Source of the DNA: Burkholderiaceae bacterium
Lineage (GTDB): Bacteria; Pseudomonadota; Gammaproteobacteria; Burkholderiales; Burkholderiaceae
NCBI GenBank assembly: GCA_947461335.1
Contig: CANHLB010000041.1
Coordinates: forward strand, 1-10,544
Direction of reading: 5' to 3'
DNA: 10,544 nucleotides
Made by a program: the position numbers and the translations under genes. Positions 2,671-8,424 of the stretch are shown here, one piece after another (the stretch's first letter is position 1; every line of letters starts with the position of its first letter). Below the pieces are notes generated by a model. It searched no databases. It saw only the letters and a list, made by a program, of their open reading frames with translations, and was not told the DNA's origin.

Positions 2671-3822
2671 ATGCACCAAGCATCATCCATGAAACACTTG
2701 CGCTCAATTTATGTTGGACTCGGTACCGTTGTATTAATGGGCTTAATTTCTTGTAGTGGAGGGGGTGATAGCACTACCTCATCTCCAGCAACCATTACCT
2801 ACACGACGATTAATTCTTCGACTTCAAGCGCGAACATCACTAGTTTGACGGGTATTCGGGGTGTGAGTAATTCAAGCAATGTTTACATCACTGGAGCAGC
2901 AGTCACTTCAAGCGGTATTTACAGTAATCAACTCTATGTTGGCCCTATTACTGGTGGCGGTACTTATTACACGCTGAACGTTCCCGGATCAAATAGTAGT
3001 ACTAATTCTTATAGTGCTGACAATTGGTTAGATACGCAAGTAAAGGTTGTAGGAAGCTCAGTCATCGATGGTGTAACAAAAGGATTTTTATACCAAGGCC
3101 CAGTGACAAATAATAATGGCCTGGGTACTGTGGGAACAGCACCATGGTATGACATTTCTTTTAGCAAGAATGGCACTGTGTATAACAGCATTCCTCATAG
3201 TGTAATGAATAACATTGTTGTGGGTGGATATCAGAAGGCACTCATCAGTGCTTATATATGTGACATCACTACTGCAGCCGCCCCTGTTTGTGATGATATG
3301 AGCGCAGCTTTTGCCAGCCTTCCGTTCGTGCCAGCAAGTACATCCGCATATGGTGTTTGGTGGAACGGTGGAACAAGCTACACCATAGTAGGGGGATATA
3401 GTAGCGTTATTAGTTCTGAGAGTAGTGGTCCTGGTAAGGTAGGCGTAACAGGATATATCGTAGATTACGATTCTTCCTCAAAAACTTGGACGCATTTCAC
3501 TAAGCTCAATTGGATGAATGGTACTACTGGAGCACTTGGCACTCACTTTGAAGGTATTACGATTGATCTAACCAAGGGTGGTTATAACTTGGCAGGAGAA
3601 GGAATTATGCCTAATGGCACAATTCCTGTAGGTTTGGCCCACGTTACCAGGACTGCAGATGGTGGCTTTACGACAAGCCCAACATGGGTCGCCGTCAGCT
3701 ATCCAAATGCCACTGTCACTACTGCTGATACGGTTTACCAGAATAATATCTTGGGAATTTATCAACCTGGGGTCCAACCTGTGAATGGATATGTGGCCAA
3801 TATTCCAACTAGTCTTTATTAA
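2671..3822 (+). CDS. Secreted lipoprotein with six internal modules, possible beta-propeller; family not recognised
   Basis: A 383-residue protein with a type II signal peptide: basic MKHLRS, a hydrophobic core and lipobox LISC, predicting lipidation at C28. Ser at +2 argues against inner-membrane retention, so the outer membrane is expected. After a Ser/Thr-rich linker, the mature part shows a repeating pattern: a hydrophobic strand ending in Gly (near residues 72, 126, 183, 239, 308 and 361), then a strand with G-F/Y or similar about 10-20 residues later, then usually an aromatic strand (YYTLNV, PWYDISF, WTHFTKL, TWVAVSY). Module starts fall near 69, 123, 180, 236, 304 and 358, a spacing of about 54-68. 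The last module lacks the closing aromatic strand, and the N-terminal ITYTTINSS could supply it, as in propellers that close by circular pairing. C197 and C207 could form a disulfide. I recognise no named domain; a distant relation to HAF-type extracellular repeats is possible. It sits between the two-component genes and another lipoprotein gene. Confidence 0.85.
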   Translation: MHQASSMKHLRSIYVGLGTVVLMGLISCSGGGDSTTSSPATITYTTINSSTSSANITSLTGIRGVSNSSNVYITGAAVTSSGIYSNQLYVGPITGGGTYYTLNVPGSNSSTNSYSADNWLDTQVKVVGSSVIDGVTKGFLYQGPVTNNNGLGTVGTAPWYDISFSKNGTVYNSIPHSVMNNIVVGGYQKALISAYICDITTAAAPVCDDMSAAFASLPFVPASTSAYGVWWNGGTSYTIVGGYSSVISSESSGPGKVGVTGYIVDYDSSSKTWTHFTKLNWMNGTTGALGTHFEGITIDLTKGGYNLAGEGIMPNGTIPVGLAHVTRTADGGFTTSPTWVAVSYPNATVTTADTVYQNNILGIYQPGVQPVNGYVANIPTSLY

Positions 3823-3828
3823 TCTTAC

Positions 3829-3856
3829 GTTAAACCACTCTTTAGAGTGGTTTAAC
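3829..3856 (+). terminator. Perfect 12-bp inverted repeat hairpin after the six-module lipoprotein gene
   Basis: Arms GTTAAACCACTC (3829-3840) and GAGTGGTTTAAC (3845-3856) are exact reverse complements around the loop TTTA, starting six bases after the stop codon. The core CCACTC/GAGTGG is flanked by AAA and TTT within the stem, as in intrinsic terminators that can work in both directions. No long T run follows, so termination may be partial or the hairpin may stabilise the 3' end of the message. Confidence 0.7.
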
Positions 3857-3917
3857 ACATGCTAAGATATTGAAAACATTATACCTTTCAAATCATTTTT
3901 AGCCTCGATCCCCAATC

Positions 3918-5990
3918 ATGACTTCTAATCGAGTTTCTTTCCGCCGTTTCATTACTCTCGCATTCATAGCGGTTTTATCTATGGGTTTAGTTGCTTGCGG
4001 CGGAGGTAGTAGTAGCACTAGTAGCAGCGCGACATCTTCAAGCACAACACCAAGCACTTACTATGTAGTGAGTACCTTGAATGATTCGGGAACTGGCTCC
4101 CTAAGAGCAGCGATAAGCTCAGTCAATAGCGCTGCTTCATCACAATATTCCGGTATTACATTTTCTGTGACTGGAGTTATTACTCTAGCCAGTGATCTGC
4201 CGGCGATTACTAATAAAGTACTGATTGATGGAACTACAGCTCCTGGATATGTGGCAGGTAATACTACTACTGCTCCACTGGTTGCCGTCAACTTTAATAA
4301 TTCAGCCTCGGGATTTAATTTCAATAGTGGATCAGCTGGCTCTGCTATCTCTGCTCTATCGATTTATGGATCGACATCAAACGGAATTACATTAAATGCT
4401 AGCAATATCGCCTTATTAAGCAACTATATTGGTTTAAACCTGAGTGGCGCGGCTGGCGGCAATGCAAAGAATGGTATCTATATTTCTTCTACCTCAATAA
4501 ATAATGTGATTGGCACGAACCCTAAGAGTATTTCTGGGCTTTATTCAAATGTTATTTCTGGAAATACACTTAACGGCATTCAGATATATGGCAGTACCGG
4601 TAATAAGATTCAAGCCAACGCCATTGGAACTAACCCAGCTGGAACTGCCGCTATCAGCAATAAAAACAACGGCATCTGGGTGACTTATTACGCTGAGCAA
4701 AACACCATTGGTGGAACAGCTTACTACGATGCAGCGACTGGTCAAACCAACAATCCTACTGGCAATAAAGGAACGGTTCCAATTGTTTCAATTGCTCCCC
4801 CATTAGGCAACCTCATTTCTGGCAATACTCAGAACGGAGTGCTGATTGATTCCTATTCAGAGCTAACAGTTCTGAGCGGTAACTTTATTGGTACGAATAA
4901 TGTTGGAACTTCAGCCATAGGAAATGGCTTGGATGGTGTCAATATTAGCTTTGCAAATAATAACCAGCTCATTGGCTGTACATTTCAAGATAATCCATTT
5001 ATTTATTACAACGTATTGAGTGGTAATGGCAGAAATGGATTGTATGTCTTCAACTCAAATGCTATTTTGGTGCAAGCCAATTTCTTTGGTGCTGGAGCAA
5101 ACAATGCATCCATGGTACCTAATGCTCAAGATGGAATTCACGTTACCGGAACCTCTGCAGGTGTTCAGGTAGGCGGAGTTATTCCTCTAGGAAATGTGTC
5201 TGCGGGTAATGGTAGGGACGGTATTCGAGTAGCAGGAACTGCTAGTGGCTTTACTACTTTTAATACCTTTGGTGGCCTGTATGCTTTTCAAGGCGCTGCA
5301 CCTAACCAGGGCAACGGTATAACAATTGACTCCACAGGTTTAAATAATCTGATTCGTACAAACGTGATGTCTGGGAATATTGGCAATGGTATTGAGCTTA
5401 CAGCTAATGCAACCAATGTGACTGTAGACCCTAATGTGGTTGGTCTGAATACTGAAGGCAATGGTGTACTTACCGGCACATCTGCTACTGACGGTTTTGG
5501 TAATGGCGGTAGCGGTGTTAAAGTCAGCGGAACTGGTAACTATATTGGTGGATATAACGATTCAGTCATTCCGCAAAATACATTCTCTGGAAATAGACGT
5601 TATGGAGTTGAGATTACTGCTGGCGCCACCGGTAATTATGTATTTAATGCTTCAATAGGCCTTGAGACTACCTTCAAGACTGGCGCTGGTTTTGGAAATG
5701 GTATGGGTGGAATATTAATCGCGGGCAATAACAACTTTGTTCAGCCATACAATGCGACCCCATCTACATACACTGGTACGCTAAAACCAGCTTATATCAG
5801 TGGAAATACGGGCAATGGAATTACATTAACTGGCAGTGGCAATACTGTTACTGGTAATTATTTTGGTTATGCTGCTGCATCAACTTTGGGCCCGCTTTTG
5901 CCAAATCAGGCATGCAATACTGGCCTCTCGATAGTTGGTGCTGGGGGCAATTCAGTTAGCGCCAATAACACAGGAACTTGCGCTCCTTAA
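3918..5990 (+). CDS. Lipid-anchored right-handed parallel beta-helix repeat protein
   Basis: A 690-residue protein with a signal peptide (basic NRVSFRR, hydrophobic core, lipobox LVAC) predicting lipidation at C27. GGG then a Ser/Thr-rich spacer (about 31-47) follows, so it is probably displayed from the outer membrane. Residues about 48-72 (STLNDSGTGSLRAAI) match the start motif common in secreted beta-helix proteins (usually N-D-S-G-x-G-S-L-R-x-A-I). The rest is rich in Asn, Gly, Ser and Thr, with a recurring N-h-x-S-G-N-x-x-N-G-I motif beginning near residues 211, 298, 365, 426, 482, 555 and 625. These are consistent with stacked parallel beta-helix (PbH1-like) coils. C354 is isolated; C666 and C688 near the C-terminus could pair. 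I see no clear polysaccharide lyase catalytic set, so adhesin, glycan-binding or surface-structure roles are all possible. ATG at 3918 has no obvious Shine-Dalgarno sequence but gives a complete signal peptide. The gene lies between two hairpins, so it may be its own transcription unit. Confidence 0.88.
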   Translation: MTSNRVSFRRFITLAFIAVLSMGLVACGGGSSSTSSSATSSSTTPSTYYVVSTLNDSGTGSLRAAISSVNSAASSQYSGITFSVTGVITLASDLPAITNKVLIDGTTAPGYVAGNTTTAPLVAVNFNNSASGFNFNSGSAGSAISALSIYGSTSNGITLNASNIALLSNYIGLNLSGAAGGNAKNGIYISSTSINNVIGTNPKSISGLYSNVISGNTLNGIQIYGSTGNKIQANAIGTNPAGTAAISNKNNGIWVTYYAEQNTIGGTAYYDAATGQTNNPTGNKGTVPIVSIAPPLGNLISGNTQNGVLIDSYSELTVLSGNFIGTNNVGTSAIGNGLDGVNISFANNNQLIGCTFQDNPFIYYNVLSGNGRNGLYVFNSNAILVQANFFGAGANNASMVPNAQDGIHVTGTSAGVQVGGVIPLGNVSAGNGRDGIRVAGTASGFTTFNTFGGLYAFQGAAPNQGNGITIDSTGLNNLIRTNVMSGNIGNGIELTANATNVTVDPNVVGLNTEGNGVLTGTSATDGFGNGGSGVKVSGTGNYIGGYNDSVIPQNTFSGNRRYGVEITAGATGNYVFNASIGLETTFKTGAGFGNGMGGILIAGNNNFVQPYNATPSTYTGTLKPAYISGNTGNGITLTGSGNTVTGNYFGYAAASTLGPLLPNQACNTGLSIVGAGGNSVSANNTGTCAP

Positions 5991-6232: not shown

Positions 6233-7675
6233 ATGGATTTAATGAAAAAATTGAAAACTCTCTTAGTAATCCCATTGGGCTTACTACTCTTTTGTATCAG
6301 TCTAAATTACGCCCAAGCTTTGCCATTATTTTCACGACAAACAGGTCAAAACTGTGTTTCTTGTCATGCTGGGGGCCAGTATCCAGAACTTACCCCATAT
6401 GGCCGTTATTTCAAGCTCACTGGTTATACGATTGGCGAACGTACCAATATTCCTGTATCGGTCCAGTTTGTTGGGGGTGCTGCTACAAGCACAAACGGAA
6501 ACAATGGTACCGGTCAAGTCCATCAAAGCGGCAAGCTAGAGCCCAATTATCTCTTCTTGAATGTTGGCGGTAAGATCACTGATAACTTTGGCGCTTTTAG
6601 CCAGTGGTATTACGCAATTGATGAGCAAGTAAGCGGTAAGGGAAGCATTCCTAATCAAAATCAGTTTGCAGCCGACATCCAGGACTGGCGTTATGCAGAC
6701 CACTATGTAGGAGATAGTGCCGATCTTATAAAAGACTTCATATGGGGCGCGTCGTTGAATAACTATGCTGGTGCTACCGATGTGTGGAACTCCTCTCCCA
6801 TGTGGATGTATCCCTATATGGGCTCAACAAGAAACTATTCTACTTATGGGCTGCCATACAACACTCGACTGTCAGCCTATTCTGTTCATAACCCAGGATA
6901 CGGTGTTTATGGCTATGTGAACAAAAATTTTTATGGTGAAGTCAACCTTTATCAGTCAGGCGGCTCAGGCCCACTCTCGTGGATGACCTATTCCGCTTCT
7001 AATAGCAATCCAAATAGTGCGCCAGTCTACTTGCAAGGACTTAATCCCTATTTTCGGTTTGCTTATCAGAGTGATGAGTATGCTGGCCATAATTGGATGA
7101 TTGGCTTCTTGGGCGCGAATATTAATCAATACTCCAGCTGTAATACAGTGGCAGATAGTAGTTCATATAAGGGCACGGCGCCTACTTGTAATGGACCCGT
7201 GAATGCTCCGGCTTTAAGTGCAGGAACGGTAAAGTTTCAAGATAGGGCAATTGATGGACAGTATCAATATTTAGTTGATCCGCATACGGTAACTGCGCAA
7301 GTTCGCTATACCAAGGAAAATATCTCTGATCCAACAGGTATCTTATATAACAACCCAAATAACAAAACAAATTCATTTCTCTCAAAGGTGAGTTATGTAT
7401 ATAACGCTACCTATGGCGCTGCTGTGGCATTTCAAAATATCACTGGTACGGCTGATGCGCATTACGGCACCAATGCAGCAACTGGAGCTAACTTAAACCC
7501 CAATTCCACTGCATGGATTCCATCGATCTGGTATCAGCCCTTGCAAAATATACGTCTCACTTACCAGTACACAGCATTTACTAAATATAACGGCGGAACC
7601 ATTAATTACAACGGTCTAGGTACTAACGCTAGCGCAAATAACGCGAGCTGGCTCTATTTATGGTTGGCCATGTAA
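6233..7675 (+). CDS. Cyc2-like outer-membrane monoheme cytochrome c fused to a predicted beta-barrel
   Basis: A 480-residue exported protein. The signal peptide (MKKLKTLLVIPLGLLL...) has a likely cut after AQA (residue 29). The mature start LPLFSRQTGQNCVSCHAGG holds a single heme-c site CVSCH at 41-45, followed by PELTPYGRYFKLTGYT. This RQTG...CxxCH...P-x-L...GR-x-FK...GYT layout resembles the cytochrome head of Cyc2-type cytochrome-porin fusions, and the overall length is similar. The remaining ~400 residues are rich in Asn, Tyr, Gly, Ser and Trp with alternating patterns and few charges, as in outer-membrane barrels. C303 and C319 may bridge a loop. The C-terminus (WLYLWLAM) looks like a final strand but ends in Met rather than the usual aromatic residue. 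Starts at TTG 6230 or ATG 6242 are possible; AGAGAG at 6218-6223 best fits ATG 6233. The stop overlaps the next gene's ATG (TAATG). Predicted role: electron transfer across the outer membrane; the donor or acceptor is unknown. It could instead be a cytochrome-headed porin not involved in metal oxidation. Confidence 0.72.
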   Translation: MDLMKKLKTLLVIPLGLLLFCISLNYAQALPLFSRQTGQNCVSCHAGGQYPELTPYGRYFKLTGYTIGERTNIPVSVQFVGGAATSTNGNNGTGQVHQSGKLEPNYLFLNVGGKITDNFGAFSQWYYAIDEQVSGKGSIPNQNQFAADIQDWRYADHYVGDSADLIKDFIWGASLNNYAGATDVWNSSPMWMYPYMGSTRNYSTYGLPYNTRLSAYSVHNPGYGVYGYVNKNFYGEVNLYQSGGSGPLSWMTYSASNSNPNSAPVYLQGLNPYFRFAYQSDEYAGHNWMIGFLGANINQYSSCNTVADSSSYKGTAPTCNGPVNAPALSAGTVKFQDRAIDGQYQYLVDPHTVTAQVRYTKENISDPTGILYNNPNNKTNSFLSKVSYVYNATYGAAVAFQNITGTADAHYGTNAATGANLNPNSTAWIPSIWYQPLQNIRLTYQYTAFTKYNGGTINYNGLGTNASANNASWLYLWLAM

Positions 7676-8424
7676 TGAAGATTCTTCTTAAGGCATCTTC
7701 TTTCTCCCTGATTCTGTTACTGGGCATGCTGACGGGATGTACCTATTTCAACAATAAACCACCTGTCACTTCTTTAGAAAATCCCTCAAGGAGTAGAACC
7801 CTAGGTGATTATGAGGTTGCAGGAAATGTTCTAGCAGTGCAGGTATGTGCGGCTTGTCATGGTGTGAACGGGCAATCGCAATCACCCATGGTTCCGAATC
7901 TGGCGGGACAGCAAAAGGGCTATATGGTAAATCAATTACAAGATTACCGTGATCGCACCAGGAGCAATAAATATGCTGTTCAGTATATGTGGGGAATGGC
8001 TGGCTCATTAACCGATAAGCAGATACAAGAATTAGCAGATTATTTTTCAAAAAAATCTCCTCAGAAAGTTCAGGTCTCTAAGATTGATGCAAATGATTCT
8101 AAGTTAGCGCGCGGTAAGGAAATTTTTGAAAATGGAATTCCTAAGCAAGGCGTTATTCAGTGCAACTCTTGTCATGGCCCTAAGGGCGAAGGTATAGCTA
8201 CCTTTCCGAGAATTGCTGGGCAGCATGCTTATTACTTAATACAGCAGCTCAATGTTTGGAAAGAACCGGCTCAAAGGGAATTTATGGAAGTTGGTGGCAA
8301 TACTTGGGCGCCTCGCACAATTACATTCGCTCGGCCACATGGGGTTTTGATGCAGAACGAAGAGAAAAATCTATCCGAGGCGGATGTGGAGGCTGTTGCT
8401 GTTTACTTGAGCACTTTGCAGTAA
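7675..8424 (+). CDS. Lipid-anchored diheme cytochrome c (cytochrome c4-like)
   Basis: A 249-residue c-type cytochrome with two tandem class I domains and a type II signal peptide; lipobox LTGC predicts lipidation at C22, with Thr at +2 favouring the outer membrane. The first heme site is CAACH (58-62), with M108 in GMAGSLTDKQ as likely axial ligand and the helix ELADYF after it. The second is CNSCH (163-167), with M226 as likely ligand before LSEADVEAVAVYL. The order and the L-S/T-x-x-x-[IV] helices match cytochrome c4, but c4 is usually a soluble periplasmic protein, so the lipid anchor is a variation. The chosen ATG (7675) shares its A with the previous stop, implying translational coupling to the cytochrome-barrel gene; an in-frame ATG at 7660 would add five residues inside that gene. 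It is the natural candidate to exchange electrons with the upstream protein and with periplasmic carriers or a terminal oxidase (inference). Confidence 0.85.
   Translation: MKILLKASSFSLILLLGMLTGCTYFNNKPPVTSLENPSRSRTLGDYEVAGNVLAVQVCAACHGVNGQSQSPMVPNLAGQQKGYMVNQLQDYRDRTRSNKYAVQYMWGMAGSLTDKQIQELADYFSKKSPQKVQVSKIDANDSKLARGKEIFENGIPKQGVIQCNSCHGPKGEGIATFPRIAGQHAYYLIQQLNVWKEPAQREFMEVGGNTWAPRTITFARPHGVLMQNEEKNLSEADVEAVAVYLSTLQ

Follow-up and report, generated by a model that had tools for sequence, protein, structure and literature searches.

INTRODUCTION

Proteins of the Cyc2 family combine a single heme with a 16-stranded porin barrel. The passages of PMC8406198 that define the family describe one N-terminal CxxCH site behind a signal peptide, a length of at least 365 amino acids, and a motif unique to Cyc2, AXPXFAR[Q/K][T/Y] before CxxCH with PXL after it. 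In the rus operon of Acidithiobacillus ferrooxidans, the gene order is cyc2-cyc1 (PMC10654088, in the part on this operon). Here we describe a similar gene pair in a 10,544-nucleotide stretch of DNA (contig CANHLB010000041.1, analyzed in full and called the window below) from a Polynucleobacter assembly. A sequence-only reading of the window had taken the pair to suggest an unassigned electron route. This description is not supported, given that both the Cyc2 family and the cyc2-cyc1 order are covered in passages of earlier work (PMC5566968, PMC8406198, PMC10654088).

According to the same passages, Cyc2 occurs in many bacteria for which iron oxidation is not known, and the survey in PMC8406198 treats Burkholderia, Ralstonia, and Xanthomonas as over-sampled genera. 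Other members of the Leptothrix-Sphaerotilus group carry only cluster 2 cyc2 (PMC11412304). For Polynucleobacter, Table 1 of PMC12285243 gives zero to three unnamed 'oxiEET' genes from a FeGenie-based pipeline, and the passages concerned in PMC6344600 name MtoAB-type genes in the genus and do not list it among Cyc2 carriers. No report of a Polynucleobacter cyc2-cyc1 pair was found in a search of titles and abstracts that left subscription journals and preprints outside its scope. Added here are the Cyc1-like second protein, the oxidase, high-potential iron-sulfur protein (HiPIP), and reaction-centre genes of the host, and the patchy occurrence of the two-gene module in Polynucleobacter.

RESULTS AND DISCUSSION

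The first protein is a member of the Cyc2 family

The first gene of the pair encodes a member of the Cyc2 family, as judged by motif, profile comparison, and fold. Its open reading frame (ORF) has a hydrophobic N-terminal leader, the stretch ALPLFSRQTGQNCVSCHAGGQYPELTPYGRYFKLTGYT, and a single CxxCH, so that the length, the single heme site, and the signal peptide (assigned by eye) all agree with Cyc2. The start codon is ambiguous (TTG 6230, ATG 6233, or ATG 6242). A database search of 7431 candidates returned 1744 homologues at E ≤ 1e-3, and alignment A1 holds 60 rows, the window protein and 59 of the best 120 of the 1744. The consensus of A1 contains FARQT, with PxL after CxxCH. In the window protein the motif reads ALPLFSRQT, with one departure (Ser for Ala), and PEL at residues 51–53 lies five residues after H45 versus four in the Cyc2 motif; both were accepted as Cyc2 features.

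The structure predicted from the 60-row alignment (mean predicted local distance difference test, pLDDT, 83.9; predicted template modeling score, pTM, 0.83) has the 16 strands of a Cyc2 porin barrel, and general porins are matched in a fold search with the model. General family collections were uninformative for this protein. No Pfam or PHROGs family matched, NCBIfam gave only a sub-threshold match to choice_anch_V (E 0.011), and PDB sequences gave only cytochrome c6 (E 1, or 1.1 with a profile).

Direct comparison of profiles places the protein within Cyc2. The A1 profile matches 24 Gallionellaceae Cyc2-type proteins, chosen by their annotated names, with a probability of 99.1 and E 9.5e-19 (hhalign), and it matches 22 proteins of the Acidiphilium/A. 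ferrooxidans-plasmid group at E about 3e-100. Its matches also include, at E 1.9e-83, the Cyc2 of a locus (L099) that in addition holds COX1, CtaA, two SCO1 genes, and a rusticyanin-like gene (137.2 bits, below the curated cut-off of 146.7). The window protein is thus nearer to a Cyc2 with rusticyanin-like and oxidase neighbors than to the Gallionellaceae Cyc2. A quick tree with 69 rows puts Gallionellaceae-type Cyc2 and the window branch on opposite sides of a fully supported split (100*). Because of the motif, the profile matches, and this split, we place the protein by sequence in the Cyc2 family, outside cluster 1 (the neutrophilic iron oxidizers) and probably in cluster 2 (the A. ferrooxidans type).

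The fusion of a cytochrome to a barrel, as the sequence-only reading proposed, is therefore borne out, and its candidate outer-membrane electron conduit gains support, with a barrel in the predicted model and no profile pointing to a purely periplasmic family.

One long loop, between strands 5 and 6, is among the best-conserved stretches outside the heme domain; D183, N186, and P194 are invariant in the 60 sequences, and the loop also holds two Trp. The pore-constricting loop L3 of general porins presumably occupies the same position. A strict pattern drawn from this loop was tried and rejected as a family mark. It is present in 40/60 (A1), 20/22 (A3), and 6/29 order loci, and in 0/24 Gallionellaceae and 0/18 further loci, and the Cyc2 with the rusticyanin-like neighbor misses it by one residue. 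This uneven spread shows that the pattern is not general in that form.

The second protein resembles Cyc1

The second gene encodes a lipobox-bearing protein with two CxxCH sites in a two-domain cytochrome c4. When its sequence alone was used to search solved structures, the cytochromes c4 6q2u (E 4e-30) and 1h1o (E 8.7e-30) were found. A family profile built from 30 relatives ranks 1h1o first at 194.7 bits, 40 bits better than the next structure (154.7). The structure 1h1o is, we take it, Cyc1 of A. ferrooxidans. The family profile thus marks the second protein as Cyc1-like, with Cyc1 of A. ferrooxidans closer in sequence than other c4 cytochromes. Together with the Cyc2 assignment of the first protein, this makes the two genes a cyc2-cyc1 pair, arranged as in the rus operon.

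Under the Lol rule, the LTGC lipobox of this protein, with Thr at +2, suggests an outer-membrane anchor. The lipobox pattern is present in all Polynucleobacter rows and in 41/63 rows overall; it is absent from two of three Burkholderiales plasmid rows and from the Methylocystis rows.

The ATG of the cyc1-like gene shares one A with the TAA stop of the cyc2-like gene (TAATG). The lipid-anchored diheme cytochrome and one-base overlap that had been read from the letters of the window are thus confirmed. By coordinates, the same overlap is repeated at four other loci (L002, L003, L005, and L008); in the remaining loci the match does not begin at residue 1 or the genes lie a few bases apart.

Both genes are under strong purifying selection. 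Nonsynonymous divergence (dN) is 0.04–0.14 versus synonymous divergence (dS) of at least 1.3, which is saturated in one of the four loci compared. The homologue count and these dN and dS values indicate that the Cyc2-like ORF and its partner are more than chance. No upstream promoter was found on the + strand; two sites, both on the − strand, were seen versus 5.9 expected.

The pair stays together while its surroundings change

A search of genome contigs found both genes in 10/10 loci. Within Polynucleobacter, the cyc2-like gene is present in 16/186 genomes (9/144 high-quality genomes), and the cyc1-like gene adjoins it in every one of the 16. Carrier isolates include UK-Gri1-W3, AP-Melu-500A-A1, 73C-SIWE, 15G-AUS-farblos, and P. 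finlandensis MWH-Mekk-B1. Across the order Burkholderiales, 93/399 genomes match the cyc2-like profile. Gene neighbors were read for 29 returned loci and 18 chosen weak matches of the 93 matching genomes. A c4 gene is adjacent in 26 of the 29 loci, the window not counted. Among the 18 weak matches, the c4 gene is adjacent in 1/11 Gallionellaceae, 0/5 of another family (f37), and 2/2 others. Five of nine plasmid records were read. Three have c4 immediately after the Cyc2-like gene, one has it upstream beyond an intervening gene, and one lacks it.

The cyc2-cyc1 pair is all that the window and seven Polynucleobacter loci (L002, L005–L009, and L011) have in common; some of those loci, compared two at a time, also share one to four further genes. 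A gyrB tree built from 150 genomes includes 13 carriers, which require 11 changes on it, and 109 of 500 shuffled labelings are as low, which means that carriers show no extra clustering. This is a quick one-gene tree with warnings on long branches and composition, and it holds 13 of the 16 carriers (G056, G143, and G152 have no listed gyrB place). Because the carriers are scattered on it, the tree points to frequent gain and loss of the pair in Polynucleobacter. The two genes are apparently a transferable cassette with a patchy distribution in the genus.

Several neighboring arrangements were observed. In Polynucleobacter AP-Melu-500A-A1, a three-heme cytochrome gene directly follows the pair (L005, 8198–9484). 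The plasmids CP084173 (A. ferrooxidans), NC_009469, and NC_015179 (both Acidiphilium) give near-identical matches, which places a Cyc2-like gene on plasmids of acidophiles; on CP084173 the gene after it encodes a one-heme cytochrome that is not c4. A Methylocystis plasmid (L016) has three consecutive diheme cytochromes after the Cyc2-like gene, and this arrangement resembles the Bradyrhizobium cluster described in passages of PMC5566968.

Features of the pair are collected in Table 1. Elsewhere in the window, a histidine kinase and a FixJ-like response regulator are encoded upstream (345–2520), and neither turned up beside the pair in seven other loci. Positions 2671–5990 encode two proteins that resemble secreted lipoproteins; the family of one is unknown, and the other has a right-handed beta-helix.

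Table 1. Coordinates of the cyc2-like and cyc1-like genes and their features in the window
Feature	Position	Strand	Basis
cyc2-like gene, secreted monoheme cytochrome fused to 16-stranded porin, 480 amino acids	6233..7675	+	ORF, homologues, model
Signal peptide region, residues 1–28	6233..6316	+	By eye; helix 2–24 in model
Heme domain, residues 29–70, best-conserved part of protein	6317..6442	+	Conservation by region; published Cyc2 motif
Heme-binding CVSCH, C41–H45	6353..6367	+	C41, C44, H45 invariant in 60 sequences
16-stranded beta-barrel (predicted), residues 75–479, long loops alternating with short turns	6455..7669	+	Predicted model, fold comparison
Strand 5–6 long loop, first half, residues 179–198; conserved D183, N186, P194	6767..6826	+	Alignment, model
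cyc1-like gene, lipobox-bearing diheme cytochrome c4, 249 amino acids	7675..8424	+	ORF, family and structure searches
Lipobox cysteine C22 (LTGC, Thr at +2)	7738..7740	+	Sequence
First CxxCH of diheme cytochrome, C58–H62	7846..7860	+	Invariant in 30 sequences
Second CxxCH of diheme cytochrome, C163–H167	8161..8175	+	Invariant in 30 sequences

Comparison with known electron conduits

The closest likeness is to Cyc2-Cyc1 of the A. ferrooxidans rus operon (cluster 2), where a secreted monoheme cytochrome-porin is likewise followed directly by a diheme c4. This likeness is drawn through the L099 Cyc2 and the c4 profile match to 1h1o, not through A. ferrooxidans Cyc2 itself. Unlike the rus system, the window has neither rusticyanin nor coxBACD beside the pair, its cytochrome partner has a lipobox, and the host is a neutral freshwater heterotroph. 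Rusticyanin is matched in 64/369 genomes of the class at E ≤ 0.001, only one of them over the curated cut-off, and no complete rus operon was recovered around that single match, which lies on a 9-kb contig.

Like the Cyc2 of Gallionellaceae and Zetaproteobacteria (cluster 1, Cyc2PV-1), the window protein has the heme motif, the signal peptide, and the predicted barrel. However, it falls on a separate branch, its barrel sequence can hardly be aligned with theirs, and a c4 gene is seldom adjacent in the Gallionellaceae loci. Cyc2-like Burkholderiales proteins annotated as 'cytochrome C' (such as those of Paraburkholderia, Caballeronia, and Ideonella) share the branch of the window protein at about 33–44% identity. 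In Ideonella and Caballeronia, c4 is directly downstream as in the window, whereas Caballeronia also has a HiPIP gene upstream of the Cyc2-like gene and Paraburkholderia phytofirmans pOLGA1 has its c4 gene upstream with one gene between.

MtrAB, MtoAB, and PioAB do the same job in principle, moving electrons through an outer-membrane barrel. They use a decaheme cytochrome in a 26-stranded porin (PMC8406198, in the passage on these systems), whereas the window proteins carry one and two hemes. No decaheme is encoded by the pair, and no PF11854 (MtrB/PioB) match was found in the host assembly, which is 78.6% complete.

The host genome and its reaction-centre genes

The host assembly (1.68 Mb, contamination 1.73%) has two COX1 genes, one accompanied by a COX2-cytochrome c fusion and the other by FixO and FixP, corresponding to caa3- and cbb3-type oxidases. 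A HiPIP gene is also present. At the completeness given above, neither RuBisCO nor rusticyanin was matched. Two host contigs, C145 (L101) and C158, hold HiPIP, a complete tetraheme cytochrome of the reaction centre (PF02276, E 1.1e-137), and, at the end of a contig, a pufM-type fragment. If the bin is clean, the host is a photoheterotroph.

RuBisCO large subunit is found in 7/186 Polynucleobacter genomes, none of which carries the pair (0/16 carriers, as far as assembled). Reaction-centre genes exceed the cut-off in 79/186. By contig coordinates, carriers with reaction centres include UK-Gri1-W3, AP-Melu-500A-A1, 73C-SIWE, and 15G-AUS-farblos; the pair is also carried by P. finlandensis MWH-Mekk-B1, which shows no reaction-centre match. 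With kinship ignored, reaction centres occur in 12/16 carriers versus 67/170 others (Fisher p 0.0077), and among high-quality genomes in 7/9 versus 52/135 (p 0.032). An independent-pairs test on the gyrB tree gave 2.2 pairs for, 0.6 against, and 7.1 with no difference (median p 0.625). Co-occurrence of the pair with reaction centres was therefore rejected as evidence.

Proposed function

The pair appears, from its sequence, to closely resemble the first step by which iron oxidizers take up electrons from dissolved iron, in a host with no sign of an iron lifestyle. The explanation that we favor, and consider reasonably probable, is that the pair is an electron-uptake module. The donor, a small reduced species for which Fe(II) or an Fe(II)-organic complex is the most likely candidate, would enter the barrel pore and give one electron to the single plug heme of the Cyc2-like protein, making this protein a candidate Fe(II) oxidase. 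The lipid-anchored diheme c4 would take the electron from this heme, and it would pass through the periplasm to a caa3- or cbb3-type oxidase, possibly via HiPIP. The heterotrophic host would gain extra respiratory energy. We infer the heme position, the direction of flow, the donor, and the energy gain by analogy with Cyc2PV-1 and the rus pathway, as presented in passages of PMC8406198, PMC10654088, and PMC7029218.

The same conduit could serve another partner, either by accepting electrons from reduced humic quinones and other small redox molecules or by exporting electrons at low oxygen. The Polynucleobacter hosts live in bogs and fresh water, in Trout Bog the material that mainly exchanges electrons is humic (passages of PMC6344600 and PMC12285243), and the seven loci compared show no iron-specific gene next to the pair. 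We nevertheless judge this rather unlikely, because the nearest characterized relatives take up electrons from Fe(II), the c4 partner and the oxidases suit electron uptake, and only small molecules would reach a single heme at the periplasmic mouth, as a passage of PMC8406198 argues.

It is improbable that Fe(II) oxidation by the pair at the surface serves to protect the cell or to handle iron instead of yielding energy. Heterotrophic carriers that lack RuBisCO would fit such a role, but the conserved c4 partner would send electrons inward, which is superfluous for detoxification alone, and the loci compared, whose neighbors are only partly named, show no linked iron-uptake gene. It is very hard to credit that the first protein is an ordinary porin whose heme is structural or vestigial and that the c4 beside it is an unrelated respiratory protein: general porins do share the fold and c4 cytochromes are common respiratory proteins, but the heme domain is the best-conserved part of the protein, both genes are under purifying selection, and the pair persists while its neighborhood changes.

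The electron-uptake module may also have a light-driven version. In photoheterotrophic Polynucleobacter it could feed electrons from Fe(II) or reduced humic substances to the reaction-centre tetraheme cytochrome, or to HiPIP and the oxidases, and so yield light- or oxygen-driven energy without carbon fixation. We treat this as a possibility, and a doubtful one, because the association with reaction centres is significant uncorrected and not with kinship correction. If true, the pair would add photoferro-heterotrophy to abundant lake bacteria as a transferable set of two genes.

Cyc2 serves as a marker gene for iron oxidation. A mobile and complete cyc2-cyc1 pair in a very common freshwater heterotroph that lacks RuBisCO leaves two alternatives, both directly testable because named isolates carry the pair: either the oxidation of iron or humic substances would be a side income in lake plankton, or Cyc2 would be an unsafe marker.
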